From Bacteroidota bacterium (lineage in GTDB: Bacteria; Bacteroidota; Bacteroidia; 2-12-FULL-35-15): a stretch of 64,000 nt of DNA. Made by a program: the position numbers and the translations under genes. The stretch lies in NCBI GenBank assembly GCA_947449315.1, contig CANFRC010000001.1:1-64000 (forward strand), in the 5' to 3' direction. Position 1 is the first letter of the stretch, and every line of letters begins with the position of its first letter. Under the pieces are notes generated by a model that searched no databases, was not told the DNA's origin, and saw only the letters and a program-made list of their open reading frames with translations. Below, in pieces: positions 4,372 through 61,053 of this stretch.

Positions 4372-5274
4372 TTATGCCATTTCTTTCTTTTTGAAGCTAT
4401 CTGCAACAATCAGATCTTTTGTACCATGTCCCCATGAATAAAAACCCTGTCCTGATTTTACACCAAGATGTCCGGCAGTAACCATATTCACTAATAATGG
4501 GCAAGGAGCATATTTTGGATTTCCATATCCATCTTGTAAAACTCGAAGGATAGACAAACAAACATCTAATCCAATGAAATCAGCCAATTGCAATGGCCCC
4601 ATTGGATGAGCCATTCCTAATTTCATTACGGTATCAATTTCTTCAACACCAGCTGTTCCTTCATGAAGCGTGATGATTGCTTCATTGATCATTGGCATTA
4701 AGATTTTATTTGCCACAAAACCTGGGAAATCTCTGACTTCAGTAGGTACTTTATTTAATTTCTTAGACGTTTCCATAATCAGATTCGTAACAGCATCAGA
4801 TGTAGAATATCCTCTGATCACTTCTACCAATTTCATAACAGGAACGGGATTCATAAAATGCATACCTATTACTTTGTCAGCACGTTTTGTAACCGCACCA
4901 ATTTTTGTAATAGAGATAGAGGAGGTATTACTCGCTAAAATGGTATTTGGCGGACAAAGTTTGTCAAGGTCGCGGAAAATATTCAGTTTGATCTCTACAT
5001 TTTCTGTGGCAGCTTCTACAACCAGATCAGCATTTTTAACGCCATCTGCCATAACCGTGTAAGAAGTAATGTTTTTTAATGTTTGTGTTTTTTCTGCTTC
5101 AGTGATGGCGCCTTTAGCAACAATACGATCCAGATTTTTTGCTATCGTAGCTAATGCTTTATCTAATGCTGGTTGAGATATATCTATTAAGGCTACCTGA
5201 TATCCAAATTGCGCAAATGTATGAGCGATACCATTGCCCATTGTCCCTGAACCTATTACTGCGATATTCTTCAT
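4372..5274 (-). CDS. 3-hydroxybutyryl-CoA dehydrogenase
   Basis: 300 residues, the usual length for single-function members (Hbd/PaaH type). It oxidises 3-hydroxyacyl-CoA to 3-oxoacyl-CoA with NAD(P)+, or runs in reverse. The Rossmann motif GSGTMGNGIA is at residues 8-17; the family signatures ASNTSSISIT and HFMNPVPVMKLVEVI (catalytic His in the latter) follow, and the C-terminal dimerisation domain includes GMAHPMGPLQLADFIGLD. It is the last of four minus-strand genes, with a 95-base gap upstream containing a direct repeat, so it may have its own promoter. Substrate chain length is not determinable. Confidence 0.93.
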   Translation of the reverse strand: MKNIAVIGSGTMGNGIAHTFAQFGYQVALIDISQPALDKALATIAKNLDRIVAKGAITEAEKTQTLKNITSYTVMADGVKNADLVVEAATENVEIKLNIFRDLDKLCPPNTILASNTSSISITKIGAVTKRADKVIGMHFMNPVPVMKLVEVIRGYSTSDAVTNLIMETSKKLNKVPTEVRDFPGFVANKILMPMINEAIITLHEGTAGVEEIDTVMKLGMAHPMGPLQLADFIGLDVCLSILRVLQDGYGNPKYAPCPLLVNMVTAGHLGVKSGQGFYSWGHGTKDLIVADSFKKKEMA

Positions 5275-5277
5275 ATG

Positions 5278-5317
5278 ATTGAAAGATTAAAAAATTAATA
5301 TTGAAAGATTGAAAATT
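5278..5317. repeat. Short direct repeat upstream of the dehydrogenase start
   Basis: The 16-base sequence ATTGAAAGATTRAAAA occurs at 5278 and 5300, a period of 22 bases, directly upstream of the dehydrogenase ATG. Two turns of the helix separate the copies. It could bind a regulator or be an intergenic low-complexity repeat. Confidence 0.5.
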
Positions 5318-5369
5318 ATAAATGCTGGTTTAAATATAGGAAATATTCTATTTTTTTTAATTAATTATT

Positions 5370-6791
5370 TTACTTCCCCCGTCCCTGTATTACTATAAGT
5401 GCTGTATAAATGAGGATCTTCATATCAACACCTAATGACATGTTTTCTATGTAGATAATGTCGTATTTAAGGCGTTGAACCATTTCGTCTACATTTTCAG
5501 CGTAGCCATATTTAACTTGTCCCCAAGAAGTAATACCTGGTCTTACTTTATGCAGATGCTTGTAATGTGGTGCTTTCAATACAATTTGATCTATAAAAAA
5601 TTGACGCTCCGGGCGCGGACCAACAATACTCATTTCGCCGATCAATACATTATAGAACTGAGGTATTTCATCCAATCGGACCTTTCTTAAGAAACGACCC
5701 AACGGTGTGATTCTCGGATCCAGTTTACTGGACAAAGCTGGTCCTGATTTTTCGGCATCAATACTCATTGATCGGAACTTATGAATCATGAAAGGTTTTC
5801 CATGCCAGCCGATTCGCTCATGACTGTAGAAGACAGGACCTTTTGAAGTAAGTTTTACGCCAAGGGCAACTAGAATATATACCCAGCTGAAAAGTGTTAA
5901 AACAACTGCTGAAGCAGTAATGTCAAAGATACGTTTTATTGATTGTTCCCAGGTTGGCATTATTTCTCTGGAAATCTCTATTAAAGGAGCCCCAAATATG
6001 GAGGTCATTTTAACGGAGCCCGAAAGGATGTCATACATATCAGGAATTACTTTTATAATAAGACCTTGATAATCGAGTTCATTGACTATTTTGCCAATGT
6101 TTTCATGTTCAAAAGATTCAATGGCAATGATTACTTCTTCAATTTTTTTTTCATTTATAATATTCTTTAAATCAGATAGTTCACCCAGGTGAGGTAAGCT
6201 TTTGTTTAATACTTGCGAGAAGCCGTTCTTGTTTTCAATATGAACAAACCCCACAAATTTATTACCGGAGGATTTGGACTGATGTTCCATTTCATTGTAA
6301 AGTTTTACTGCATTCTCATTGCTACCCACCAATAAAGTATTAAACCCCATAATTCTATTATGAATACGGTAATTGGTGATGCTTGATAATATGAATCTGA
6401 GTATCGCAGTAAATCCAAAATGGAGCAAAAACAAAGTAAGTATAGTTTGATAATAATTTCTGTACGAAAGTATCTGGTCATCAAGCAGTAAAGTGAAAAA
6501 TATAATCAAAACACCTATAATAGAAAGCAGCAGTGTTTGCCCAACTTCTTTTAGACGTGATTTTCTGTAAATATCCTTATAACTTCCTGTAAGATAGTAT
6601 ATTATAATCCAAAAAAATGGAATAAATAGGAGTCCCCAAAAGAATCTGTTGTCAAAATTTAAAGGAATAGGTTTTCCGAATTTAGCGGTTTCAATATAAA
6701 GCTTTCTGAAGGTGTAAAAAAGTGTCCAGGCCAGCATAGCTGCTGATATATCGGCAATAAGGTACTTTAGAACTTGTAACTTTTTATTCAT
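5370..6791 (-). CDS. Polyprenyl glycosylphosphotransferase (exopolysaccharide initiating sugar transferase)
   Basis: 473 residues, the normal length for WbaP/WcaJ-type enzymes that transfer a sugar-1-phosphate to undecaprenyl phosphate and start a capsule, exopolysaccharide or O-antigen unit. Four hydrophobic segments lie in residues about 5-140, then a Rossmann-like central domain, then the catalytic PF02397 domain from about residue 280. That domain has the re-entrant helix after KRIFDITASAVVLTLFSW and the motifs MIHKFRSM, RLDEIPQFYNVLIGEMS, VGPRPER (about 390) and KVRPGITSWGQ. No other polysaccharide synthesis cluster is adjacent. It is 20 bases downstream of the lipoprotein gene, in the same orientation. 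Confidence 0.92.
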   Translation of the reverse strand: MNKKLQVLKYLIADISAAMLAWTLFYTFRKLYIETAKFGKPIPLNFDNRFFWGLLFIPFFWIIIYYLTGSYKDIYRKSRLKEVGQTLLLSIIGVLIIFFTLLLDDQILSYRNYYQTILTLFLLHFGFTAILRFILSSITNYRIHNRIMGFNTLLVGSNENAVKLYNEMEHQSKSSGNKFVGFVHIENKNGFSQVLNKSLPHLGELSDLKNIINEKKIEEVIIAIESFEHENIGKIVNELDYQGLIIKVIPDMYDILSGSVKMTSIFGAPLIEISREIMPTWEQSIKRIFDITASAVVLTLFSWVYILVALGVKLTSKGPVFYSHERIGWHGKPFMIHKFRSMSIDAEKSGPALSSKLDPRITPLGRFLRKVRLDEIPQFYNVLIGEMSIVGPRPERQFFIDQIVLKAPHYKHLHKVRPGITSWGQVKYGYAENVDEMVQRLKYDIIYIENMSLGVDMKILIYTALIVIQGRGK

Positions 6792-6811
6792 AAAACTGCT
6801 TACCCTTCCAC

Positions 6812-7690
6812 CTAATTATGAATGATTTTAATATTGTCCAGTGATAAAGAAATACTGTCTTCTGCCGTATTGTTGATCATGCCCCATGCGATTTTATAGT
6901 TTAAGGCGGAGGAAGCGCTGCTCACAGAAGGGGTGAGATAAACATAGGCTTTGTTCCATGTTAAACTTTGGTTGAAATGCAATACTACAAATTGAGCGGA
7001 TGTTGCTGCTCCATAGGCGTATATGCTAACCGTGAACCCATAATTACACTTATAGTTAAATTCTAAAAATACTGGGGAACCATATTGAGGCAAAACCATT
7101 GGAGTTACTGTTGCGCATTCGAATCTAGTATTGACAGGATCTAGATAGGCGATAGCAGAATGAGTTCCTTCAAAAACATTCTCATGAGGAGTGGCAGAGT
7201 AAAGTATTTGCAGGGTCGTATCTGTCTTTCCTTTTACAGTGTCAATTGTTGTTCCTGTTGTTTCGAAATCAGACATAAATTCGTATACTGTTGCTGAAGT
7301 GTATGTTGTAGTTGGAGTTAAAGTGGTTACTGTACCTTTCTGTAAATCAATGTCTTGTTCAATAAAATTATAAAAAGGGTAATAGGATCTGTTGGTAGCA
7401 ATACCATTTACCTTGATCCCGGGTTTGATCCTGATTCTATGCTTTCCATCATAAAGCACGGGGAAGGTTGCTGGCAATTCAAAACAGCCAATTAACTGTT
7501 CATCGATATACACCCATGCATCTGAAATTTTGCTAGAATTTGTTCCCTGAGTGGCTGTTGTAGTAAGGTCAATTTTTTGTATATGAATATAGGCTGGAAT
7601 AGGTTCAGCAGGATTGTATAATTCACATGAAGAAAAGGCGACAGCAAATAATAGACTAAATGCAATAATTATTTTGTAGTATTTTTTCAT
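6812..7690 (-). CDS. Putative lipoprotein of unknown function
   Basis: 292 residues. A signal sequence ends in a lipobox (FSSC, Cys about residue 22), so it should be lipid-anchored. The mature part begins with a beta-rich region that includes a segment resembling PEGA-type surface domains (VLYDGKHRIRIKPG), then a Thr-rich stretch (TVTTLTPTTTYTSATVYEF), then a jelly-roll-like region ending SLSLDNIKIIHN, a pattern seen in carbohydrate-binding beta-sandwiches. I do not recognise a named family. It lies between an oxidoreductase (9-base gap) and a sugar transferase (20-base gap), so it is probably co-transcribed with them. Confidence 0.7.
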   Translation of the reverse strand: MKKYYKIIIAFSLLFAVAFSSCELYNPAEPIPAYIHIQKIDLTTTATQGTNSSKISDAWVYIDEQLIGCFELPATFPVLYDGKHRIRIKPGIKVNGIATNRSYYPFYNFIEQDIDLQKGTVTTLTPTTTYTSATVYEFMSDFETTGTTIDTVKGKTDTTLQILYSATPHENVFEGTHSAIAYLDPVNTRFECATVTPMVLPQYGSPVFLEFNYKCNYGFTVSIYAYGAATSAQFVVLHFNQSLTWNKAYVYLTPSVSSASSALNYKIAWGMINNTAEDSISLSLDNIKIIHN

Positions 7691-7699
7691 TCTTCAGAT

Positions 7700-8704
7700 T
7701 TATTGATTCAATGGCTGTTCTTCCGTAAAATTAGATGTCAGCTTCATTTTTTCGATAATTTTGTAAGCAACATCCAAGGCTTTATAGCCATCATCAATAC
7801 TCACCAAAGGGGTTGTGTTGCTGATAATTGAATCAGCAAACGCTTCCAACTCCATTTTTATTGCATTGGTTGGTAAAATAGTTGGATTTTCGAAGTAGAT
7901 TTGTTTAGAGCCTTTGTTATTTCCAAGATCTATGGTAACTGAAAGGGGGTCTATTTCGCCAACCACGTCATTTAATCGGATAACATCTACTTTTTTATCA
8001 AGAAAATCTACTGAGATATAGGCATCTTTTTGAAAGAAACGGGACTTCCTCATGTTCTTCAAAGAGATTCGGCTGGCTGTAAGGTTGGCAACGCACCCAT
8101 TATCAAATTCGATACGTGCATTTGCAATATCGGGGCTTTCACTTACTACTGCTACACCGCTTGCGCTGATCCGTTTAATGTTCGATTTTACAACACTCAG
8201 AATAATATCGATATCGTGGATCATTAGATCAAGAACAACTGAAACATCAGTTCCTCTTGGATTGAATTGTGCCAAACGGTGTGTTTCAATAAACATAGGG
8301 TTGGAACAATAATCTCTGGCGGCAATAAACGCAGGATTGAATCTTTCAACATGTCCAACTTGTACCAGCACATTTGCTTCTTTGGAAAGACCTTTTAAGC
8401 TTTTTGCTTCTTCTATTGTATTGGTTACAGGTTTTTCAATGAAAATATGTTTGGAGCTTTTTATTGCTTTGGAAGCGCAATCATAATGCGCTATCGTAGG
8501 TGTAACAATATCAACAGCGTCAACTTGTTCTAATAATGCATCAATCGTATCAAATCTTTTTATTCCGTATTCCTTTTCAACAAGTGCTGCTGATTCAGGG
8601 TTCGCGTCATAAAATCCAACTAATTCATATTTATCAATTTCCTTCAATAGTCGGATATGAATTTTACCAAGATGACCAGCACCCAGCACTCCAATTTTTA
8701 TCAT
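7700..8704 (-). CDS. Gfo/Idh/MocA family oxidoreductase
   Basis: 334 residues from the ATG at 8704; a longer frame to 8743 exists, but its extra 13 residues precede the typical MIKIGVLGAGHLGKIH opening. The Rossmann motif GAGHLGKIH binds NAD(P), and the family motif EKPVTNTIEEA contains the usual catalytic-site Lys-Pro. The C-terminal alpha/beta domain includes DLMIHDIDIILSVV with the conserved His-Asp. Members oxidise or reduce sugars and inositols; the neighbouring sugar transferase suggests a nucleotide-sugar or glycan substrate, which is inference only. First gene of the minus-strand group 4372-8704. Confidence 0.88.
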   Translation of the reverse strand: MIKIGVLGAGHLGKIHIRLLKEIDKYELVGFYDANPESAALVEKEYGIKRFDTIDALLEQVDAVDIVTPTIAHYDCASKAIKSSKHIFIEKPVTNTIEEAKSLKGLSKEANVLVQVGHVERFNPAFIAARDYCSNPMFIETHRLAQFNPRGTDVSVVLDLMIHDIDIILSVVKSNIKRISASGVAVVSESPDIANARIEFDNGCVANLTASRISLKNMRKSRFFQKDAYISVDFLDKKVDVIRLNDVVGEIDPLSVTIDLGNNKGSKQIYFENPTILPTNAIKMELEAFADSIISNTTPLVSIDDGYKALDVAYKIIEKMKLTSNFTEEQPLNQ

Positions 8705-8730: not shown

Positions 8731-8820
8731 CTTTTTTCCACAATTGATTATTGAAAAATTACTTTTTTTATTAAGTATACTGTTGTTAATTTCCTCAATT
8801 TCGTGATCTAGAAAACAATT

Positions 8821-9471
8821 ATGACAAACGACACATATCGGCACAAAGGTTTACGCAGGCAATTAGCATCCTTATTAAAGGAGAAAGGAATAGAAAATGC
8901 GTCAGTTTTAACAGCAATTGAGACCGTTCCACGTCATTTGTTTTTAAATAGCTCATTTATAGAACGTGCTTATGAAGATATAGCATTCCCAATTGGGTCG
9001 GGACAAACCATTTCAAGACCACATACTGTTGCTTTTCAAACGGAATTGCTCGAACTTAAAAAAGGGGAGAAGGTTTTGGAAATAGGTACTGGTTCGGGCT
9101 ACCAAACAAGCGTTTTGCTGGAAATGGGTGCTAAAGTATACACAATTGAGCGTCAAAAAGCACTTTTCGACCTTACCAAAACATTTTTGCCAACTATTGG
9201 ATATAATCCTAAGTTCTTTTATGGCGATGGGTACAAAGGGTTACCTGTTTTTGCTCCTTTTGATAAAATCATTATAACGGCGGGTGCACCCATTATCCCC
9301 GATGCACTTTTGGATCAGTTAAAGATTGGTGGAATAATGGTTATTCCGCTTGGAGATGCAGTGCAGGTAATGACCTTGATAAAAAAGGTAGCCAATAAAA
9401 AGTTTGAAAAAGTGGAATATGGGGAGTTTCGATTTGTTCCATTATTAGAGAACAAGGAGTGGGGGGATTAA
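8821..9471 (+). CDS. pcm: Protein-L-isoaspartate O-methyltransferase
   Basis: 216 residues, the normal bacterial length. It methylates isoaspartyl residues in damaged proteins with S-adenosylmethionine and so starts their repair. Visible motifs are VPRHLF, the active-site segment PIGSGQTISRPHTVAF (about 59-74), the SAM-binding VLEIGTGSGYQTSVL, and the C-terminal PLGDAVQVMTLI. No signal peptide. It is divergent from the oxidoreductase and stands alone. Confidence 0.94.
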   Translation: MTNDTYRHKGLRRQLASLLKEKGIENASVLTAIETVPRHLFLNSSFIERAYEDIAFPIGSGQTISRPHTVAFQTELLELKKGEKVLEIGTGSGYQTSVLLEMGAKVYTIERQKALFDLTKTFLPTIGYNPKFFYGDGYKGLPVFAPFDKIIITAGAPIIPDALLDQLKIGGIMVIPLGDAVQVMTLIKKVANKKFEKVEYGEFRFVPLLENKEWGD

Positions 9472-9538
9472 AGGTTATGAACAATTTACTGTTTAAAACA
9501 ACTAAATTGTTAATAACTTATATCGTTGAAAAATGTAT

Positions 9539-9546
9539 TATCTTTG
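9539..9546 (+). promoter_or_regulatory. Candidate -7 box for the outer-membrane protein gene
   Basis: TATCTTTG matches TAnnTTTG and lies 55 bases before the ATG at 9602. No TTG occurs at the usual distance of about 19 bases, so the upstream element is weak or absent. The leader is A-rich, as in strongly expressed Bacteroidota genes. Confidence 0.5.
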
Positions 9547-9601
9547 TAGCACTGAATTTTAATTATTACAAATCAATTATTTAAACTAAACAACAAAAAC
9601 T

Positions 9602-10528
9602 ATGAAAAAATCAGTATTAGTAATTGCTTTAGCACTTGGCGTAACAGGTGCTTTTGCGCAAGATTTAACATCAAAAAAAGGTGAGCCAATTTTACCAGAG
9701 TCTGGTGATTGGGCTATCAGTATGGATGCAACTCCTATCTTTAGCTTTGTAGGAAATGCATTTAACGGTAACACAGGTAATGCTGCTCCAGGGGTAAATT
9801 GGTTGAATGGTAACCAAACAATCATCGGAAAAAAATTCATCGATGAGAAAAGCGCTTACAGAGCTTTAGTAAGATTAGCGTTTACTAACCAAACGTACAA
9901 AAACATGGTTGTCGATAACTCAATCGTTACTGCAGCAGTTTTCCCAGCTACAGATGCTTTGGTTCAGGATAAATTAAAAGTGAGAAATACAACAATTGGT
10001 TTAGGTGTTGGTAAAGAGTGGAGAAGAGGAAAAACGCGTTTGCAAGGGTATTATGGTGCTGACGCGATGATATGGATCGCTAGCTCTTCTAACAAATTTG
10101 AATACGCTAACACAATGTCAGCTACAACTGGTTCAGGAACAACAACACTTCCAACAACAACAGATTTTTCTACTCCATTAGGTGGTGGTTATGCTTCTTC
10201 AGGTGTTCCTTCTCGTACAATATCTTCAAAATCAGGAATGACTTTTGGGTTAGGTGTTCGTGGTTTTATTGGAGCTGAATACTTCATCTTCCCTAAAATT
10301 GCAATCGGTGCAGAATACGGTTGGGGATTAGGTTTCCAAGTTCAAGGTAAAGGTAAAACTTCAACTGAAAAGCAAGGTGGATCACCAAACCAAGTAGCAA
10401 CAATCGAAACAGAAACTGCTGGTAACTCTAAATTTGGTTTCGATACAGATTTAAACCAAGGAACTATTTTTGGTTTCAGAGGTTCTAACACTGGAACAGG
10501 TTCATTAAGAGTAACTTTCCACTTCTAG
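9602..10528 (+). CDS. Probable outer-membrane beta-barrel protein
   Basis: 308 residues. A clear signal peptide (KKSVLVIALALGVTGAFAQ) is followed by alternating amphipathic strands with many Gly, Thr and aromatic residues, ending in a barrel-like last strand (SLRVTFHF) with a terminal Phe. A Thr/Ser-rich segment near residue 175-200 looks like an extracellular loop. Stand-alone transcription unit with a TAnnTTTG promoter element and a strong terminator; the use of GGT and GTT codons is consistent with high expression. No transport specificity can be read from the sequence. Confidence 0.75.
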   Translation: MKKSVLVIALALGVTGAFAQDLTSKKGEPILPESGDWAISMDATPIFSFVGNAFNGNTGNAAPGVNWLNGNQTIIGKKFIDEKSAYRALVRLAFTNQTYKNMVVDNSIVTAAVFPATDALVQDKLKVRNTTIGLGVGKEWRRGKTRLQGYYGADAMIWIASSSNKFEYANTMSATTGSGTTTLPTTTDFSTPLGGGYASSGVPSRTISSKSGMTFGLGVRGFIGAEYFIFPKIAIGAEYGWGLGFQVQGKGKTSTEKQGGSPNQVATIETETAGNSKFGFDTDLNQGTIFGFRGSNTGTGSLRVTFHF

Positions 10529-10549
10529 TAAGTTGAAATTATACGAAAC

Positions 10550-10579
10550 AAAAAATCCCGCTTCTAGCGGGATTTTTTG
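10550..10579. terminator. Bidirectional terminator
   Basis: The arms AAAAAATCCCGCT (10550-10562) and AGCGGGATTTTTT (10566-10578) enclose a 3-base loop. It is shared by the outer-membrane protein gene and the convergent pseudouridine synthase gene. Confidence 0.92.
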
Positions 10580-10581
10580 TT

Positions 10582-11115
10582 TTATGACAATAGTAAAAAA
10601 AGCGTTGCTACTTCATCCTCCGTCAGCTCCCTCCATTCTCCTAATTTTAAATTACCTAATTTAATATTCATTATTCGTACTCGTTGTAATTTTAAGACCT
10701 GATAATCTAATGCATTGCACATTCTCCGGATCTGTCTGTTCAAGCCTTGTTTTAGCGTGATTCTGAAAATACGTTTGGCATTTGGCTCTGCTTTTATTTT
10801 ACATGGTTTTGTTGTTGCTTCTCCAATATTTACTCCTTGTGCCATTTGCTTTAGAAATTGATTTCGTAGGGGAAGGTTAAGTGTTACGATGTATTCCTTT
10901 TCGTGTTCAAAGTTGGGGTGAATAATTTTGTTGATGATTGCTCCATTATTTGTCAGTAATAGCAGTCCTTCCGAATCTTTATCCAATCGACCGACAGGTA
11001 AAATATTTTCCTTGTGATTGATGGCATCAATAATATTCCCCTCTATTTTTTCTGTTGTACAAACAATTCCAGCGGGTTTATTGTATGCGATATAAATAAA
11101 TTTATGTTCTTCCAT
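10582..11115 (-). CDS. rRNA pseudouridine synthase, RsuA/RluE/RluF family
   Basis: 177 residues. It isomerises a specific uridine in ribosomal RNA. The catalytic motif GRLDKDSEGLLLLTN (Asp in RLD) is near residue 42-56, with KPAGIVCT before it and the family's QGLNRQIRRMC near residue 124. It lacks the N-terminal S4 RNA-binding domain of RsuA, RluB and RluF, so in architecture it is closest to RluE, although databases may call such proteins RluF. The target base cannot be assigned. Terminated by the hairpin it shares with the outer-membrane protein gene. Confidence 0.88.
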   Translation of the reverse strand: MEEHKFIYIAYNKPAGIVCTTEKIEGNIIDAINHKENILPVGRLDKDSEGLLLLTNNGAIINKIIHPNFEHEKEYIVTLNLPLRNQFLKQMAQGVNIGEATTKPCKIKAEPNAKRIFRITLKQGLNRQIRRMCNALDYQVLKLQRVRIMNIKLGNLKLGEWRELTEDEVATLFLLLS

Positions 11116-11169
11116 TTTTAATATTTCAGCAAATGTAATTTGTAAATGATGGTATATGAAATAAATTTT

Positions 11170-11177
11170 TACATTTG
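11170..11177 (+). promoter_or_regulatory. Candidate -7 box for the cobalamin-riboswitch transcript
   Basis: TACATTTG matches TAnnTTTG and ends 8 bases before the riboswitch core, which places transcription start at its 5' edge. An inverted copy (CAAATGTA, 11130-11137) faces the divergent pseudouridine synthase gene. Neither has a clear -33 TTG at the usual spacing. Confidence 0.55.
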
Positions 11178-11184
11178 TCCGCTT

Positions 11185-11352
11185 TTGGTCCCTTCCATTA
11201 TTGGGAGGGTTAAAAGGGAATCAGGTGTGAATCCTGGACATTTCCCGATGCTGTAAGTTCATTTTTAGTTTTTAACATTCAAAGCCACTGTCCGCTCACG
11301 CGGATGGGAAGGCGTTAAAAAACAGAACAAGTCAGAAGACCTGCCATTTGCA
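11185..11352 (+). promoter_or_regulatory. Cobalamin (AdoCbl-type) riboswitch
   Basis: The conserved core is readable in order: GGTCCC, TTAAAAGGGAATCAGGTG, a TGTAAG segment, AAAGCCACTG, GGGAAGGCG and the B12 box AAGTCAGAAGACCTGCC (11329-11345). This is the standard order of the cobalamin aptamer. It lies 113 bases before a BtuB-type receptor gene. The region after it holds a small hairpin (GTTAT at 11395-11399, ATAAC at 11404-11408) and a pyrimidine-rich stretch that may form the expression platform. By family precedent, bound cobalamin should lower expression of the two downstream genes. Confidence 0.95.
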
Positions 11353-11464
11353 AATATTCAATGCTTTCGGGTAAAGAGCTAAGAATGGAAACAGGTTATT
11401 TTTATAACAATCCTATCCGTTCCCCTTTTTACTCCTTTTATGTACATTTTAAAAATATTTAAAA

Positions 11465-13669
11465 ATGAAAAAGGAGAAAATCTTCATCGTATCAAGCGCA
11501 ATAGTATTGCTGGCGCTAAGTGTTTCTGCGCAAGATTCATTAAAGAACAAACAACTTTCTGAAGTAGTGGTTTCTGCAACACGCAGTGAGAGGAACATCA
11601 CTGATATTGGTCGCAGTATTTCTGTGATCACCTCTGACGACATCAAAAAATCGGGTGCAACCTCTATGGCAGAACTGCTTAGCCAACAAGAAGGAATGTA
11701 TGTTGTTGGAGCTGGACAAAACCCGGGTATGACCTCCAGTATTTTTACGCGCGGAGCAAATAGCAATCAGACAGTCGTCTTAATTGATGGGGTCAGGATA
11801 ACTGATCCATCAGCGATCAATAACTCGATTGATGTTAGTGAATTATCATTAGCAAACATTGACAAGATCGAAATTGTCAGAGGATCACACAGCATATTAT
11901 ACGGCTCTTCTGCAATTGGTGGGGTTGTGAATATTATCACAAAAAAATCTGCTAAGCCTGGATTGTCCGCAGATGTTGCATTAACAGCTGGAACCTTTGG
12001 TAAAAACACATCCGAGATTACTGAAAATGTGTATTTGAATTATGCCCTTAAAAATGGTTTTTACGCGAGCGCTGAGGTGATGAACACGGATGTCAAGGGG
12101 TTGAATGCGACTGTGGATACCGTCACAACCTCTTCCGCATATAAATATGATAATAGGAGCGATGGCTTTTCAAAGCTGGATTGGGTGGCAAAAACGGGGT
12201 TTCAGAATAAAAAACTTGATGTATATGCTTCCTACAAACAAACTCAACAGCTAGCTGATATTGATAAATCAGCCTATAAAGATGACGACAACTATACAGT
12301 GGCATTTAAAAGAAGTTTGTTTACCTATGGCGCTTCCTATAAGTTGAGTGAGAAATTTAATTTTGGTTTGATTGGTGGAATGTCTGCTATGAAAAGAACA
12401 GCCATTGACGATTCGTCAACAATTGATGCAGCTGGAACATACGATAAAACCTATAATAAAGGAGTGTATGAAGGAAAAATAATGAGCAATGAATTGCAAG
12501 CAAATTATATGATCAAAGGGTTGAATATTGTTCTTGGAGCAGGTTTGTATAGTGAAGGGATGAAGGCAAATACGAGCTACTTGTATTATAATCAATGGGG
12601 ATTTCCACCCAGTTACGTTGATTTAAAAACATCCACCGATTCCATTAACCCTGCGTCAACCACTTCCACTATTTTTTTGCATACAGATATAGGAGGTGAA
12701 CTTTTTAATGAAAAACTAAAGTGCCTGAATCTATCAGGTGGTCTAAGAGTTAGCAATCACAATGTGTTTGGGACAAATCTAACATATGAGATCAATCCTT
12801 CAGTAAAAGTTGTAGAGGGTGGATTGTTGTATTTTACCTATGCCACCGGTTACAATGCCCCTTCGTTATATCAACTATATGATGCCACAAAGTATGTTAC
12901 CTGGGATACTCAAATCACAAATGGCTTAACAAGAGGGAACAAAAAACTATCTCCTGAAAGCTCCAAAACGTTTGAGATCGGTTATAAACAGAAGATCAAT
13001 GATGTTACATTCTCTGTCGCCTATTTTAATACATGTGTCGATCATGTGATTGAATATGTGTACTTATGGGATAAAAATATAGGCATTGATACTTTAGGTC
13101 AAAATTTTGGAAGAGACGATTATAGAGGTGATACATATATTAATATTGGGAAGATGACGACACAAGGTGTGGAGTTTGGCTTCAGTTCAAAAGTGTCAGA
13201 ACAATTATCAGTGTCTGCAAATGTAATTTTGGTGAATGGTAAATTACACTATTCACCCAGCGATATTGACACATCTCAAACACATGGAGATCATGTTCAG
13301 ATTTTTGGTAACGGTGCATTTATTTCAAATAAGGAAGTTGAAACACTTGGTTTGTCTCGTAGACCGAGTACAGCGAATATTTCAATTACATATATGCCGA
13401 TTAAAAAAATTGCTTTAAGGGCCGATGTTCGTTACGTGGGATCAAGAGGTGATGTTTATTACGAATCAAGCCTTGGACCTTATGGTGCACTAGGAACAGT
13501 GTCTGTTGAACAATATACATTGTTTGATCTATCCCTTCGAACAGCAATTTATAAAGGATTTTCGGCAAACCTTAGCGTATCCAATTTGTTGGATAAAAAA
13601 TATTACGAAATAAACGGCTTTACAACTCGTGGCAGGGGAGTTTATTTAACATTGCATTATACTTTATGA
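11465..13669 (+). CDS. btuB: TonB-dependent cobalamin receptor (BtuB type)
   Basis: 734 residues. An outer-membrane receptor, predicted to import cobalamin or other corrinoids using TonB energy. A signal peptide ends LALSVSAQ; a TonB-box-like LSEVVVSATRSER follows, then the plug domain (VVLIDGVRI, LANIDKIEIVRGSHSILYGSSAIGGV) and a barrel of about 570 residues with the family motifs NKKLSPESSKTFEIGYK and a C-terminal strand GVYLTLHYTL. The upstream riboswitch supports the substrate. Its stop overlaps the next start in ATGA, so translation is probably coupled. Confidence 0.93.
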   Translation: MKKEKIFIVSSAIVLLALSVSAQDSLKNKQLSEVVVSATRSERNITDIGRSISVITSDDIKKSGATSMAELLSQQEGMYVVGAGQNPGMTSSIFTRGANSNQTVVLIDGVRITDPSAINNSIDVSELSLANIDKIEIVRGSHSILYGSSAIGGVVNIITKKSAKPGLSADVALTAGTFGKNTSEITENVYLNYALKNGFYASAEVMNTDVKGLNATVDTVTTSSAYKYDNRSDGFSKLDWVAKTGFQNKKLDVYASYKQTQQLADIDKSAYKDDDNYTVAFKRSLFTYGASYKLSEKFNFGLIGGMSAMKRTAIDDSSTIDAAGTYDKTYNKGVYEGKIMSNELQANYMIKGLNIVLGAGLYSEGMKANTSYLYYNQWGFPPSYVDLKTSTDSINPASTTSTIFLHTDIGGELFNEKLKCLNLSGGLRVSNHNVFGTNLTYEINPSVKVVEGGLLYFTYATGYNAPSLYQLYDATKYVTWDTQITNGLTRGNKKLSPESSKTFEIGYKQKINDVTFSVAYFNTCVDHVIEYVYLWDKNIGIDTLGQNFGRDDYRGDTYINIGKMTTQGVEFGFSSKVSEQLSVSANVILVNGKLHYSPSDIDTSQTHGDHVQIFGNGAFISNKEVETLGLSRRPSTANISITYMPIKKIALRADVRYVGSRGDVYYESSLGPYGALGTVSVEQYTLFDLSLRTAIYKGFSANLSVSNLLDKKYYEINGFTTRGRGVYLTLHYTL

Positions 13670-33245: not shown

Positions 33246-33494
33246 TTAATTTTTTGGTGCGCCAGGTGCAGTTTTTCTTCCAAACAAACGCTTTCTATTT
33301 GTATGCATTTGTTTTTTATACATTTTTTCTTGCCGTTTGACAATTTTTTTGTTTTGCTTTTGCTCTTTTGTACTCGGTTTGTTCTTCATGTGAAGGTAAG
33401 CATTCTTCCCAGCCTTTGGTTTGCAGGAAGGAAATGCAACAACAAAAAAACAAGCAGATAAAACAAGTAATATTATTTTAGAGAAACGTATCAT
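33246..33494 (-). CDS. Small Lys-rich lipoprotein, copy 1
   Basis: 82 residues. A signal sequence with the lipobox FPSC is followed by a strongly basic, helical mature peptide of about 55 residues: KNAYLHMKNKPSTKEQKQNK, later MYKKQM and an RKRLFGRK tail. It shares the pattern Cys-Lys-x5-Asn-x-Tyr-Leu-x2-Lys-x-Lys-Pro-Ser and a YKKQ motif with the next gene, 43 bases upstream, so the two are paralogues. No known family recognised. A basic lipoprotein could bind DNA, peptidoglycan or lipopolysaccharide; this is speculation. Confidence 0.65.
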   Translation of the reverse strand: MIRFSKIILLVLSACFFVVAFPSCKPKAGKNAYLHMKNKPSTKEQKQNKKIVKRQEKMYKKQMHTNRKRLFGRKTAPGAPKN

Positions 33495-33537: not shown

Positions 33538-33837
33538 TTACGTTTTTTGAAGATATTTCTTCCTTTTGTTCTTTTTCAAATGCTTGTAATGCTTCTTAGG
33601 CGAAGTTGATTTTTGGATATTCCCTTGGATATCCTTTTTGTTTTTTAGCAGTTGCTTTTTGTATGCCTTAGTCCCGATCTCTAACTGTTCTTTTTCTTCT
33701 TTCCGTTGCTTATCGCTTGGTTTTTCTTTTGCAGTTAGGTATGGATTGTATGATTTTCGCGTTTTACAGGAAGTGAATAGCAATATACTTGTAACGCTAA
33801 CTACTACAATGTAAATTCTTTTTTTATAATATTTCAT
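33538..33837 (-). CDS. Small Lys-rich lipoprotein, copy 2
   Basis: 99 residues. Lipobox FTSC follows a hydrophobic signal. The mature part repeats the pattern of the preceding paralogue (KSYNPYLTAKEKPSDKQRKE, then YKKQLLKNKKDIQGN) and ends in a longer Lys/His-rich tail. Lysine is more than a third of the mature sequence. Same orientation, 43 bases from its paralogue, so likely one transcript. No recognised family. Confidence 0.65.
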   Translation of the reverse strand: MKYYKKRIYIVVVSVTSILLFTSCKTRKSYNPYLTAKEKPSDKQRKEEKEQLEIGTKAYKKQLLKNKKDIQGNIQKSTSPKKHYKHLKKNKRKKYLQKT

Positions 33838-33942: not shown

Positions 33943-35304
33943 ATGAACATCAACAGTCGTATAGTCTCTTTTTTTATTATTTGTATCATCGTATCCTGCG
34001 GCAGTGAAAAGAATCCCGAATGGGTTACATTCTCAAAACAAATAGCCCCGATCATTTATAAAAATTGTACTTCTTGTCACCGTCCGGGTGAGTCAGGACC
34101 ATTTAGTTTGATCAGTTATAAGGATATTGCTTCACGCGGAAAGCTATTGAAATTTGTTACTCAGTCTCGTTTTATGCCTCCTTGGCCTGCAGATGCCGAA
34201 TATGTTCATTTTATGGATGAAAAAGTATTATCTAAAGATGAAATAGATTTAATTGCTTTATGGGTAGATGGCGGATGTGCTTTGGGTGACTCCACAAAAA
34301 TTCCTTCGCCACCAGTTTTTCCCAAAGGCTCTCAATTAGGGAAACCCGACTTAGTTATTAAATTCAGAGATGTCTATAAAATAAAAGGAAATGGAGAGGA
34401 CCAATTTTTATTGATGCGTGTTCCATATGAGATACCTATAGATACCTTCATTACTACTATTGAAGTGGTTCCCGATAACCGTAAATTATTGCATCATGTG
34501 AATGCACAATTATTGAGTTACGATTTTGATAAAAAGAAAGATGTCTTTAAAGGAAATGTCGTGATCAATTTAGAGGATGTTCCTGATAAGATGCAAGCTT
34601 ATGAAGCTATCGGACTGGCTAACGATGATGGTGTTTCTTTTCCTACCATGACTCAATCTGTTACTAATTATTTACCAGGTGTTACACCACCAATATACCC
34701 TGATGGTATAGGTGGTTTCAAAATGGTAAGAAAAGGTGCTTTGTTTTTAAAAGACATTCATTATGGCCCTTCGCGTGTGGATACAACCGATCAGACTTCA
34801 TTCAATGTTTTTTTCGCAAAGTGCGCTCCAAAAAGACCAACGCAAGAGTTTCAGATGGGAACATTCGGTGTTTCTCCTACAGTTCCTCGTTTGATTATAC
34901 CTCCTGATACCATAATGACATTTACCTCTGAATATAAATTACCTATTGATATCTCTATTTTAACGATCAATCCGCATATGCATTTATTGGGTAAAAGTTT
35001 TTGGGCTTATGCGGTCACGTTGCAAGGTGATACCATTCCATTAATTAAGATCAAAAAATGGGATTTCCGTTGGCAATATTTTTATACATTTAAAAAAATG
35101 ATAAAAATTCCGAAAGGAGCAACTATTCACAGCGTTGGTGTTTACGACAATACACGTCATAATCCGAATAATCCATTTAGTCCGCCAAGATTGGTTGCGG
35201 AGCGGGGGGGAAGCATGCGTACATCTGATGAAATGTTTCAGTTCATTATCACATACCTTCCTTATGAAAGTGGGGACGAATTAATCAGTTTGGAAAAGAA
35301 ATAA
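33943..35304 (+). CDS. Lipoprotein fusing a cytochrome c domain to a PHM/DBM-like copper monooxygenase
   Basis: 453 residues. A lipobox (VSC, Cys19) anchors the protein. A cytochrome c domain has the heme motif CTSCH at 42-46 and a likely distal Met in the segment RFMPPWPAD. The remainder matches the two-domain type II copper, ascorbate-dependent monooxygenase fold. All six copper ligands of peptidylglycine monooxygenase have counterparts: His184, His185 and His273 (HHV, DIHYG) for one copper, and His345, His347 and Met431 (NPHMHLLGK, SDEMF) for the other. A built-in heme could supply the electrons that ascorbate gives in animals. It should sit in the periplasm or on the cell surface. Substrate unknown. 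Confidence 0.85.
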   Translation: MNINSRIVSFFIICIIVSCGSEKNPEWVTFSKQIAPIIYKNCTSCHRPGESGPFSLISYKDIASRGKLLKFVTQSRFMPPWPADAEYVHFMDEKVLSKDEIDLIALWVDGGCALGDSTKIPSPPVFPKGSQLGKPDLVIKFRDVYKIKGNGEDQFLLMRVPYEIPIDTFITTIEVVPDNRKLLHHVNAQLLSYDFDKKKDVFKGNVVINLEDVPDKMQAYEAIGLANDDGVSFPTMTQSVTNYLPGVTPPIYPDGIGGFKMVRKGALFLKDIHYGPSRVDTTDQTSFNVFFAKCAPKRPTQEFQMGTFGVSPTVPRLIIPPDTIMTFTSEYKLPIDISILTINPHMHLLGKSFWAYAVTLQGDTIPLIKIKKWDFRWQYFYTFKKMIKIPKGATIHSVGVYDNTRHNPNNPFSPPRLVAERGGSMRTSDEMFQFIITYLPYESGDELISLEKK

Positions 35305-56532: not shown

Positions 56533-58950
56533 CTATTTCGATTTTTTTATTCTTTCCCAGATAGCAAGTAAAGTTCCCAATGCCATAATGATGCAACCCA
56601 TCCATAGAATATTGATGTATGGGAAGACCATTGCTTGCATCACAATAAAGTCGCGTACGTTTGATTTCTTTTCTTGCAAGGAGATTTGAATAGTTCCTTT
56701 TGTAGGGTCTATTTGCCAGAACATGAATTGTAAACCCAGTTCGTCGATCTTGGAAGAAATAGGTTGAACGGCACTGTTATGAATAACGTATACCGGAGTG
56801 GCTTCGTATTTTTTTGTGATGTCTAACACTCTGATGTACGCCTTCACTGCAATATCTTTTTCGTCTAGATGATAGGGTGTTTTATCAAAATTTGTTGATA
56901 GCGAATCATATATGATAATTGCATTGGAAGAAAAAATAGTATCACCTTTTTTCAATGTGTAATTTTTTGCAGCTGTATATTCATCAGCTGTTGCTTCTTT
57001 TTTCTGATTAATACTTTCAAGGTCGGCATAAGTTACATGCGTGTATACATCATAGGTAAGGAAGTGTCTTGTATCCGGCTCCGCTATATTTCCCATCTTA
57101 GGATTTGTTTGGACCAACGGTGATAAAGTAAATTCCTTTGTTAAAGCTCCTGTTTTACCTTTTGTAAAATAATCAACATCATAATAAACATTGATTCCTT
57201 CCTGACGTTTTCCTTTGTAGGTCACTAAATAGTTCCCCATCGGTAACGTATCGCCTTGCGTCAAAAGTATGTTGTCATTGTTTGAAAAATCTTTCCCTAA
57301 ACTTTCAATACTTTTACCTGAGGTGTTTTGAGAGATGATGTCTTTTTTAGATGTAGAAATTAACGCACCTAACAAAACTAATCCAAAGCCAATATGTGCA
57401 ATAGATGCTCCCGATTTTTTTACTTTTCCTTTCATCACTCTGATCATGTAGTCGGCATTCGCAACTGCAGCAAAGATGGAAGAGAATAGAAGTAATGAGT
57501 AATAGTTGTTGTGAAATTGTAAGATGTAGATCATGAAAAAAGTCAATGCAAAAGAAATGAACAATGATAGACTCATCTTTTTTCCGAAGGCTTTTATGTC
57601 TGTATCTTTGTATTTAAAATATTGACCCACACCAATTAACAATGTGGTAATGAATGCGAAAGGCAGCTGCCAATTATTATAGAAGCTGATAAGATCTTTC
57701 GCTGGTGCTTTGTTCAAGCTAAATAATTTATTCCATACCGGCATGGATGTATAAAACATGATCTGAAAGGAGGAGACTAGCAGAACAATTGCGCCCACAA
57801 ACATCCAGAATTCGCGTGACCAGATGCCTTCTTCTTCTGTTTGTTTTGGAAAATACTTCCAGTTTTTCGCCATTAAAAATAGACCAAGCAATAAAAAGAA
57901 AAACAAATAGATCAATAGTTGTCCGGACATTCCCAGATCGGTAAAGGCGTGTACAGATGTTTCTCCTAAAATACCACTTCGGGTAAGGAAAGTAGAATAG
58001 AGAATCAAAATAAAAGTAAGGATTGCTAAAAAGAAGGCCGTTATTAACGATTGACCTTTTTGTTTGTTGATCAGCAATAAATGTGCTGTTCCAACTAAAG
58101 TCAGCCAAGGTACCAAAGATGCATTTTCAACAGGATCCCAAGCCCAGAATCCCCCAAAGCTCAATGCTTCATAAGCCCATGCGCCACCCATTAAAACACC
58201 AACACCCAAAACTGCTACACCTAAGAAAGTCCAGGGAAGCGCAGGTTTTATCCATTCATTGAATTGTTTTTTCCACAAACCAGCAATAGCGTATGCAAAA
58301 GGAACAACGGTCAAAGCAAAGCCAAGAAAAAGAGTAGGAGGGTGGATGGTCATCCAATAATTTTGCAATAATGGATTTAGTCCGCGACCATCCAATTTTT
58401 CCAAATAATGTGGATCACTGAATAAAGGAATTTTACTAAAGTCCGGATGCTCACGTAATAAAACAGCAAAAGGATTGCTTCCTATTCGGTGTTCAAAAAC
58501 AAAGATGCCCAATAACATGGAAGCTAAAAATGCCTGAACCAAGGAAATGATTGTCATAACAGGCGCTTCCCAATTTTTTGCGGAGCGTTGTAATATAATT
58601 CCAATTACGACATGCCAAAACGTCCAGAGTAAAAAGCTACCTTCTTGTCCTTCCCAAAAGCAAGAGAGTATGTAGCGAATAGGCATTTCTTTATTACTGT
58701 GGTGCCAAACATATTCATATTCAAAATAGTGATTCATCAACATGATGAAAAGACTTACAACAATTCCTATGACAGATAATCCGTGAATACGAAAAGAAAC
58801 ACGTGCAATTCGTTTCCAGGAGGAAGCACTTTCTTTTTCCTGTGCCGAGAAGAAATAACTGATACTTGCTAAAAGAGCAAAAACAAAGGAAAGGATGACA
58901 AATACATTTCCAACTTTGCCGACCCATAAATGCTCACCTATGTATTCCAT
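56533..58950 (-). CDS. ccmF: Cytochrome c heme lyase CcmF
   Basis: 805 residues with about 15 membrane helices. It takes heme from CcmE and attaches it to the CxxCH cysteines of apocytochrome. The Trp-rich WWD motif reads GGFWAWDPVENASLVPWL near residue 265, with CFWEGQEGSFLLW near residue 92 and the conserved TIHPPTLFLGF. A periplasmic insert of about 200 residues precedes the last membrane segment. The usual partner CcmH is not encoded in the window. Last gene of the ccm set. Confidence 0.92.
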   Translation of the reverse strand: MEYIGEHLWVGKVGNVFVILSFVFALLASISYFFSAQEKESASSWKRIARVSFRIHGLSVIGIVVSLFIMLMNHYFEYEYVWHHSNKEMPIRYILSCFWEGQEGSFLLWTFWHVVIGIILQRSAKNWEAPVMTIISLVQAFLASMLLGIFVFEHRIGSNPFAVLLREHPDFSKIPLFSDPHYLEKLDGRGLNPLLQNYWMTIHPPTLFLGFALTVVPFAYAIAGLWKKQFNEWIKPALPWTFLGVAVLGVGVLMGGAWAYEALSFGGFWAWDPVENASLVPWLTLVGTAHLLLINKQKGQSLITAFFLAILTFILILYSTFLTRSGILGETSVHAFTDLGMSGQLLIYLFFFLLLGLFLMAKNWKYFPKQTEEEGIWSREFWMFVGAIVLLVSSFQIMFYTSMPVWNKLFSLNKAPAKDLISFYNNWQLPFAFITTLLIGVGQYFKYKDTDIKAFGKKMSLSLFISFALTFFMIYILQFHNNYYSLLLFSSIFAAVANADYMIRVMKGKVKKSGASIAHIGFGLVLLGALISTSKKDIISQNTSGKSIESLGKDFSNNDNILLTQGDTLPMGNYLVTYKGKRQEGINVYYDVDYFTKGKTGALTKEFTLSPLVQTNPKMGNIAEPDTRHFLTYDVYTHVTYADLESINQKKEATADEYTAAKNYTLKKGDTIFSSNAIIIYDSLSTNFDKTPYHLDEKDIAVKAYIRVLDITKKYEATPVYVIHNSAVQPISSKIDELGLQFMFWQIDPTKGTIQISLQEKKSNVRDFIVMQAMVFPYINILWMGCIIMALGTLLAIWERIKKSK

Positions 58951-58977
58951 ATTCTATTGTGAATCTATTTTGATTTA

Positions 58978-59367
58978 CTAATTACTAGCTGTTGGTTTTC
59001 CATCGTTGTATTTGGATGGACATTTCATCAAGATATCTGAAGCCTGAAACTCATTTCCGGTCATTTTACCAATCAGAACTATTTGTTCGGAACGTTCAAA
59101 GTCTTGTGGTTTGTTTTTATGTAATACTACTTTGCATTGAGTTCCCTTGTTATCGACCATATAAAATGAAAACAAATTTGCATCAACTTTTGGTTCGTAT
59201 ACAGATGCGCTGTCTTTGTTTAATTTTCCAACAACATGAAACTCGCTATCCGGTTCTTTTGCTGCTTCCGAAAAACTAGCATAGGTACTTGTGTTGTTTA
59301 ATGTGGTAAATATGGCTCCAATTGCAACTGCAATAATAATGATGCCTAGGATGTGAATTTTTTTCAT
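58978..59367 (-). CDS. ccmE: Heme chaperone CcmE, CxxxY type
   Basis: 129 residues from ATG 59367; an upstream in-frame ATG at 59382 is less likely. One N-terminal membrane helix (ILGIIIIAVAIGAIFTT) holds an OB-fold beta domain (FHVVGKLNKDS, VVLHKNKPQDFERSEQIVLIGKM). The heme-binding site is Cys116-Pro-Ser-Lys-Tyr120, i.e. CxxxY, where the well-studied proteobacterial form has HxxxY. Cys variants are known from archaea and some sulfate reducers and mark the system I variant without CcmH. Sits between ccmD and ccmF. Confidence 0.9.
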   Translation of the reverse strand: MKKIHILGIIIIAVAIGAIFTTLNNTSTYASFSEAAKEPDSEFHVVGKLNKDSASVYEPKVDANLFSFYMVDNKGTQCKVVLHKNKPQDFERSEQIVLIGKMTGNEFQASDILMKCPSKYNDGKPTASN

Positions 59368-59412
59368 GGTGATGTTTTGCAATTATGCGATACTGCGCAA
59401 AGTATTTTCTTA

Positions 59413-59655
59413 CTATTTATTTTGAACTTCTTTTTCGAGCTTACTTATTTTTCTGTCTAGCAATATTAAGTACGTTACTATTCCTATAAAAATAATAGCA
59501 ACCACTGCTACAACAACATATATTTTACCTGATTGATATAATCCTGTTGCCATTTCTACGGGCGCTTGTGTTGCTGATTGCATAGCTTGTGCAAACATGC
59601 TTCCGGAGCAGAAAGCAAGAACAAGAAGTATTAAAAATCTTTTAAGTGTGCTCAT
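59413..59655 (-). CDS. ccmD: CcmD family protein
   Basis: 80 residues. An N-terminal signal-like segment (LILLVLAFCSGSMFAQ) is followed by a second hydrophobic helix (IYVVVAVVAIIFIGIVTYLI) and a charged tail LLDRKISKLEKEV. It matches the CcmD-like proteins in Bacteroidota. CcmD helps release holo-CcmE from CcmC. It begins 4 bases after the ccmC stop. Confidence 0.82.
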   Translation of the reverse strand: MSTLKRFLILLVLAFCSGSMFAQAMQSATQAPVEMATGLYQSGKIYVVVAVVAIIFIGIVTYLILLDRKISKLEKEVQNK

Positions 59656-59659
59656 TTTT

Positions 59660-60325
59660 TTAATCGTTTAAATAAATTTTACGTTTTACTTTTTCCAGTC
59701 GGACACGGAGTGTAAAGATCCAGACAACAAACAATATCCACCCTGTTACCGCAGGATAAAAGACCATACGCATATTGCTGTCTAGGTCATATTTGTTGAA
59801 ACCTGGGTTTCCGCCATTGCCTGGATGTAACGAGTCGTTCATACGAGGAATGATCATCAGAAAAACAACTAACATCACATAAGCAAAAATATTGTATACG
59901 GCAGAAATACGAGCTCGTTTTTGTTCTTCATCAATGGAACCTCTTAAAACAAAATAGGCTAAATAGATCAGCATCGTAATGGCAGCTCCGTTTAATTTAG
60001 TATCGGCTACCCACCAAGCACCCCAAGTATAACGCGCCCAAATGGACCCTGTGATCAAGCCTAATGCACCCACAAGCATTCCTGTATGTGCAGCTTGAGA
60101 AGCAAGTAGATCACTTTCAATGTTAGATTTACTCAGGTATTTTATGCTGTTCCATAAGGACACAAATAATATCGTCATCATTGAAAACCACATCGGAACA
60201 TGAAAATAAAGATTGCGGATGCTCTCGTGAAGAATTGGTTGAGCAGGAACTTTTAAAAGAAATCCTGCAATGATGGTGTATAGCACAAATACAACTGCAA
60301 TTATTTTCCACCAATTTTTTTTCAT
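59660..60325 (-). CDS. ccmC: Heme transfer protein CcmC
   Basis: 221 residues from ATG 60325 (KKNWWKIIAVVF); an in-frame ATG 12 bases upstream exists. Six membrane helices. The conserved segments are RNLYFHVPMWFSMM and the WWD-type TWGAWWVADTKLNG, in which the usual WD of WGTWWVWD reads AD, as in other Bacteroidota that I recall. It passes heme to CcmE together with CcmD. Followed by ccmD at 4 bases. Confidence 0.9.
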   Translation of the reverse strand: MKKNWWKIIAVVFVLYTIIAGFLLKVPAQPILHESIRNLYFHVPMWFSMMTILFVSLWNSIKYLSKSNIESDLLASQAAHTGMLVGALGLITGSIWARYTWGAWWVADTKLNGAAITMLIYLAYFVLRGSIDEEQKRARISAVYNIFAYVMLVVFLMIIPRMNDSLHPGNGGNPGFNKYDLDSNMRMVFYPAVTGWILFVVWIFTLRVRLEKVKRKIYLND

Positions 60326-60396
60326 TTTAATATGCAAATATTTTTAGTACAATTCCCAATTTAATAAAGCTATGGGGAGGATTTTGAACACCTCTA

Positions 60397-61053
60397 TTAA
60401 TCGCGCCAAAGGTAACGAAATAATAAATAGGATAATGCGATAATTATGACATTTAAAAACACAAGTACCATTAAAAAATTCATATCCCAATGTTCTAATC
60501 CATCGATGGCATTTTTTGATAGTTTAATGAGTACGATCAGCAAAGGAATAAGAATAGGGAAACTTAAAATAGCCATCAATGTAAAGTTGTTGCTTGCTTT
60601 TGATGCAATAGCCGAAACCATAGTCAATAAGGAAGAAAACCCAAAACTGCCTAATAGCAAGGTGAGCATGAATAAGGGCATATCTTGAACAATGTTACCG
60701 ATAAATAAACTATATACAGCCAGGCAAAGTGCTGCTAAAACAGTTAATAATAATGAGTTGTATATGATCTTGGATAGAATCACTGCTTGCGGACTCGTTA
60801 AAGTATATAAATAGAGTAGACGACCTTTTGTTTCACTAATAAAACTTTTTGCAATGGCATTGACAGATGCAAATAGAAAGATGATCCAGAAAAGCGCATT
60901 CCAAGTTGCTGGAGTAACAATTTTTTTGAAAGAGAGGTAACTTACAAAAACAGTTGAAACTACATATAATAAAATGCCGCCAAGCGCGTATTTATTGCGC
61001 ATTTCTAGCCTTAGTTCTTTTGCGATGAGGTATTTTATTTGTTTCCCAATCAT
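60397..61053 (-). CDS. ccmB: Heme exporter membrane subunit CcmB
   Basis: 218 residues with six membrane segments. It opens IKYLIAKELRLEMRNKYALGGILLYVVS, and has NAIAKSFISETKGRLLYLYTLTSP and LLLGSFGFSSLLTMVSAIAS, all CcmB features. It normally pairs with the ATPase CcmA, which is not in the window. It begins 3 bases after the upstream nuclease gene. Confidence 0.9.
   Translation of the reverse strand: MIGKQIKYLIAKELRLEMRNKYALGGILLYVVSTVFVSYLSFKKIVTPATWNALFWIIFLFASVNAIAKSFISETKGRLLYLYTLTSPQAVILSKIIYNSLLLTVLAALCLAVYSLFIGNIVQDMPLFMLTLLLGSFGFSSLLTMVSAIASKASNNFTLMAILSFPILIPLLIVLIKLSKNAIDGLEHWDMNFLMVLVFLNVIIIALSYLLFRYLWRD

Follow-up and report, generated by a model that had tools for sequence, protein, structure and literature searches.

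A predicted PHM/DBH-type dicopper monooxygenase joined to a c-type cytochrome in a Bacteroidota genome

In animals, the textbook dicopper enzymes PHM and DBH draw their electrons from ascorbate, and enzymes of this type make noradrenaline and peptide hormones. A gene of a Bacteroidota bacterium raises the question of how such a core might be reduced in a bacterial envelope. It lies at 33943-35304 on the + strand of the window, that is, the whole stretch of 64,000 nucleotides analysed here. The frame starts with ATG, stops at 35302-35304, and encodes 453 aa with a lipoprotein signal, a predicted monoheme cytochrome c domain and a PHM/DBH-type dicopper monooxygenase core. We consider it rather probable that the product is an envelope lipoprotein of two modules, a c-type cytochrome and a PHM/DBH-type core.

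The signal peptide occupies 33943-33999 (+) and ends in the lipobox IVSC, with the codon of Cys19 at 33997-33999. Cys19 is found after IVS and is conserved in at least 90% of 81 aligned sequences, which supports the lipid anchor proposed in the initial annotation. The genome scan, carried out with a 13-sequence alignment, yielded 386 relatives, and the 80 best of these were retained. These 80 are nearly all from Bacteroidota and mostly from metagenome assemblies.

Downstream of the signal, a cytochrome c domain is predicted at about residues 29-115 (34027-34287, +) from a sub-threshold Pfam match, family matches and secondary structure. The Pfam match, to Cytochrome_CBB3 (PF13442), covers residues 36-83 with an E of 0.008, below the cut-off; 50 of the 81 members match the same model at E<=0.01. 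Helices of this domain are modelled at residues 30-41, 59-63, 66-74 and 98-109. The heme-attachment motif CTSCH, reported earlier at residues 42-46, is present (Cys42-Cys45-His46; 34066-34080, +) and invariant in 81 relatives. It is placed after the lipoprotein signal, i.e. in a protein with an export signal. Met78 of an MPPW motif (34174-34176, +) was not named in the initial annotation; it is likewise invariant in these relatives and is the predicted distal heme ligand, and axial ligation by His46/Met78 is probable. The domain shares with the monoheme c-type cytochrome domains of PF13442 the CXXCH motif and the downstream invariant Met and Trp, whereas it differs from them in falling below the cut-off, in its length of about 85 residues and in being joined to a copper core.

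All intact members examined have a CX2-4CH heme motif ahead of the copper core. That distant members without CXXCH might be heme-free was considered and rejected, since the same place holds CX3CH in one of them (L166) and CX4CH in others (L148, L156, L147, L157 and L167). MPPW is missing from these distant members; Met78 is invariant within the close family of 81 sequences. Judged by its motif, heme binding appears to persist although the remaining cytochrome domain has changed in the most distant members, and the view that a c-type heme domain is a fixed part of the family is supported.

The identity of the copper core was addressed through structure prediction, as had been suggested for comparison with PHM. 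An AlphaFold2 model built from the 81 aligned sequences reached a mean pLDDT of 89.8 and a pTM of 0.82; a single-sequence model had a pLDDT of only 32.9 and was not used. The best 30 Foldseek matches in the PDB are all PHM or DBH, the best with an E of 2.9e-12. VIA-align gave a Z of 18.6 over 279 residues for human DBH (PDB 4zel) and 14.7-18.0 for rat PHM (PDB 1sdw and others), against 6.7 for the next unrelated chain. The modelled fold is the two-domain jelly-roll of PHM/DBH and not another one. A profile limited to the C-terminal domain matched no PDB sequence, while the wider family profile A6 matched DBH (E 2.6e-14) and PHM (E 5.9e-13), and its alignment pairs all six ligands (HH/HH, HY/HY, HxH/HTH, EM/EM).

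The copper ligands of DBH are His262, His263, His333, His412, His414 and Met487 (PMC4846438). By profile alignment, His184-His185 within LLHHV (34492-34497, +) would be the CuH ligands equivalent to DBH His262/His263 and PHM His107/His108, and His273 within DIHYG (34759-34761, +) the third CuH ligand (PHM His172; DBH His333). The CuM site would be formed by His345 and His347 of the His345-Met-His347 stretch within NPHMHLLG (34975-34983, +; PHM His242/His244; DBH His412/His414) and by Met431 of the DEM motif within SDEMF (35233-35235, +; PHM Met314; DBH Met487), where dEM is aligned with DEM. The corresponding motifs of rat PHM are HHM, HYG, HTH and DEM. The codons were checked directly, and the six residues stand exactly where the initial annotation had placed them, in the contexts of the two copper sites that it had recognised. 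Because the fold match is joined by an alignment to documented DBH ligands, both copper sites appear, on the evidence of sequence and fold, to be in place; the fold match and the alignment imply a clustering of the six ligands as two metal sites, each of which would hold one copper. We regard the copper fold and the ligand assignment as almost certainly right.

A search with the Cu2 monooxygenase profiles, also proposed earlier, succeeded for one domain of the pair. Cu2_monoox_C (PF03712) matches residues 332-407, a range that includes His345 and His347, at 28.1 bits (cut-off 23), and it matches 81 of 81 aligned sequences. PF01082, the N-domain model paired with it, finds no match in any of the 81 members; the N domain is nevertheless covered by the structure alignment and the profile alignment. 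Since half of the copper core is known to Pfam, databases already list such domains in bacteria. No NCBIfam family matches the 453-aa protein, and the open-access literature searched, from which subscription journals are mostly missing, yielded neither a characterised bacterial member nor an account of the heme fusion.

Conservation of the putative ligands extends across the family. Cys42, Cys45, His46, Met78, His184, His185, His273, His345, His347 and Met431 are invariant in the 81 aligned sequences, so that homologues losing the copper ligands, which would have spoken against the initial annotation, did not appear among them. A more diverse set of 19 members, with identities as low as 14%, leaves only 15 columns unchanged (C42, C45, H46, W107, H184, H185, G246, P253, H273, H345, H347, G392, N403, E430 and M431), and all nine proposed heme and copper ligands are among them. 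Drawing all nine ligands by chance into 15 positions out of 453 has a probability of about 2e-15, a figure that ignores the general conservation of Cys, His and Trp. By these alignments, conservation of the heme and copper residues is far beyond chance. Among 63 relatives including paralogs, these residues depart in one degenerate copy only, L048 (4666-6288, -). This paralog has the equivalents of H185D, H345F and H347R, with CXXCH and MPPW intact and a PNP tail; its genome holds several copies, and it is possibly a pseudoenzyme.

Related Bacteroidota commonly carry the protein. The distribution survey covered Bacteroidota. In an even sample, counting matches that span it, about 27 of 198 Bacteroidota genomes match the copper core, the other listed matches being to the cytochrome domain only; of 59 related genomes 49 matched, some through the cytochrome domain or a paralog only. 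No relatives were found in viral contigs or plasmids. Within the host genome, PF03712 detects the window copy only, and a wider family profile detects a second, very distant member. On contig C13 of the same genome, L187 (5415-7082, -) encodes 555 aa with CTSCH, SHTHKYG, NDEMM and a T9SS sorting tail; Pfam detects only the tail, and the family profile gives an E of 7.6e-47. Members of a second class are about 520 aa long and have a sorting tail of T9SS type A (TIGR04183, 50.4 bits versus a cut-off of 23), from which export to the cell surface is expected. Elsewhere, L052 holds tandem giant reading frames of 1168 and 1411 aa (5003-8509 and 8772-13007, +), each with an N-terminal cytochrome-copper enzyme and, behind it, long stretches of repeats and a PNP tail motif.

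The neighbours of the window copy are a LuxC-like reductase, a metallophosphoesterase and a DNA-alkylation-type repeat protein. They recur in a minority of relatives only, all among the closest ones examined, and therefore no substrate is drawn from them. Two small, divergently transcribed basic lipoprotein-like frames (33246-33494 and 33538-33837, -), alike by eye in being K-rich with SCK and KPS, also adjoin the gene in a minority of relatives only.

A different association is seen farther out in the family. Among relatives with enough upstream sequence to be testable, an AhpC/TSA-redoxin gene lies immediately upstream on the same strand in 29 of 53 outside the closest clade, and in 0 of 21 within that clade (>=64% identity). 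The redoxin gene often overlaps the copper-enzyme gene by 4-19 bases. In L164, redoxin, cytochrome c and copper core are fused in a single 599-aa chain. The link to a redoxin is thus real in part of the family. Two cysteines are invariant in 29 of 29 upstream redoxins, a CP near the N-terminus and a GC close to the C-terminus, and the partners are weakly similar to ResA/DsbE. An assignment of the upstream gene as a CNHCP-type redoxin was rejected, as the adjacent genes carry N-terminal CP and C-terminal GC-x-I-E. On contig C2 of the host genome, a cluster at L188 (2585-8113, -) comprises a multicopper oxidase with a T9SS tail, a two-cysteine redoxin, a YHYH protein with a T9SS tail, MbnP and a MauG-type di-heme peroxidase. 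It looks like a copper-related envelope system. The redoxin in it is related to the upstream redoxins and overlaps the multicopper oxidase gene, a context that hints that such redoxins may serve envelope copper proteins.

The window also encodes ccmF (56533-58950), ccmE (58978-59382), ccmC (59660-60337) and ccmB (60397-61053), all on the - strand and assigned by Pfam. The initial annotation took them as the machinery that would mature the heme. The genes are there, and as a group (56533-61053) they encode System I cytochrome c maturation, which serves the cell as a whole. As an argument for heme maturation of this protein their proximity is weak, because they lie 21 kb from the dicopper gene and at least six other cytochrome c domains in the host genome are served by them.

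How, then, might the core be reduced? In PHM and DBH, CuH serves in electron transfer, CuM is the site for O2, and ascorbate supplies one reducing equivalent per copper (PMC6123673, PMC4846438). We propose that an envelope electron carrier reduces the heme, which would stand in for ascorbate and pass single electrons to CuH (His184/His185/His273). CuH and CuM (His345/His347/Met431) would then reduce O2 at CuM, where one oxygen atom would be inserted into a C-H bond of the substrate and water released. Where a redoxin gene adjoins, its product may protect or mature the enzyme by peroxide removal or by thiol or copper handling. Several observations make transfer from heme to CuH the most economical choice: the animal homologues need an external one-electron donor, none of the intact members examined lacks a heme domain, no ALO-type aldonolactone oxidase is detectable in the host, and the host respires O2. 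The respiration is deduced from two COX1 (heme-copper oxidase) genes in the host genome. The ALO result comes from a search with a single family (PF04030), which includes ascorbate-forming enzymes and had no match in that genome; it bears only indirectly on the use of ascorbate as donor. Monooxygenase activity is predicted with good confidence, and a heme acting as electron donor to copper with slightly less. The complete proposal, a two-module lipoprotein with electrons flowing from heme to CuH and monooxygenation at CuM, is our best explanation and a fairly likely one, in which metal occupancy, the direction of electron flow, hydroxylation and the class of substrate are the parts that we infer. 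Computation itself shows the fold, the conserved ligands, the fusion, the anchor signal and, in relatives, the operon link. Some points count against it. The T9SS-tailed paralogs, among them the distant one of the host genome, are predicted to exit the cell, and it is less easy to picture a respiratory donor at work out there; the window gene is without a functional neighbour; and the upstream AhpC/redoxin of relatives is also compatible with a role that is driven by peroxide or concerned with copper handling.

The last point leads to an alternative in which the enzyme is peroxide-driven or uncoupled, the core using or making H2O2, the heme only priming or re-reducing the copper, and the AhpC/redoxin managing the peroxide. 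Both the upstream position of the two-cysteine redoxin beyond the closest clade and its fusion in L164 would suit this arrangement, and H2O2 can bypass the need for a reductant in PHM (PMC6123673). However, no redoxin stands beside the window copy or in any of the 21 testable close-clade relatives, and the invariant full heme motif suggests a sustained electron supply and not priming alone. We therefore hold this alternative to be improbable, though it is the strongest of those considered. Electrons might also run in reverse, with copper oxidising the substrate and the heme feeding the respiratory chain, as in a copper-heme dehydrogenase. Cytochrome c domains fused to periplasmic oxidoreductases are often electron acceptors, which lends this idea some appeal. 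Nevertheless, CuM and CuH are arranged exactly as in PHM/DBH, the one for activating O2 and the other for accepting electrons, and we know of no dehydrogenase with a PHM/DBH dicopper core; reversed flow is accordingly given a still smaller chance. Less probable again is a copper or heme handling protein, a chaperone, store or sensor and not an enzyme. The resemblance of the redoxin partners to ResA/DsbE, and the overlap of the related host redoxin with a multicopper oxidase gene near those for MbnP and MauG, could be read that way. Yet both copper sites and the heme are invariant in very distant members with the enzyme fold intact, and storage would not need the pair of a 3-His and a 2-His-Met site.

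Among enzymatic readings, peptide alpha-amidation like that of animal PHM has the fold and copper ligands in common with the protein studied here. In PHM, Arg240, Asn316 and Tyr318 anchor the peptide carboxylate. Arg240 is aligned with Asn343 of the window protein, and Asn316 and Tyr318 fall at Gln433 and Ile435, by position counted from the aligned DEM motif. Since these anchoring residues are not conserved, peptidylglycine is unlikely as the substrate. An amidating lyase domain is neither fused nor adjacent in the window, and amidation is in our view very unlikely. The protein also departs from rat PHM in its fused heme and in having no disulfides, and it is not classed here as a PHM in the enzymatic sense. 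Its cysteines are at 14, 19, 42, 45, 112 and 294 only, and the disulfides of the animal enzymes are therefore absent. Human DBH shares the dicopper core and the six aligned ligands at 15% identity, whereas the window protein is a bacterial lipoprotein without the extracellular disulfide pattern and with no evident ascorbate supply. Both carry an extra N-terminal domain, a c-type cytochrome here and in DBH a DOMON domain, which belongs to a class reported to bind heme or sugar (PMC4846438).

We hold it about as likely as not that bacteria possess a widespread branch of PHM/DBH in which a c-type heme built into the chain replaces ascorbate, and which exists as lipid-anchored, redoxin-fused and T9SS-exported proteins; this type might be the older one in a class that is mostly presented as eukaryotic. 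With the heme fixed permanently to the copper core in one chain, such bacterial enzymes would make the much-debated electron-transfer step more accessible to study. That the branch occurs so widely in Bacteroidota suggests an oxidation, within the cell envelope or on its surface, that has so far escaped notice.
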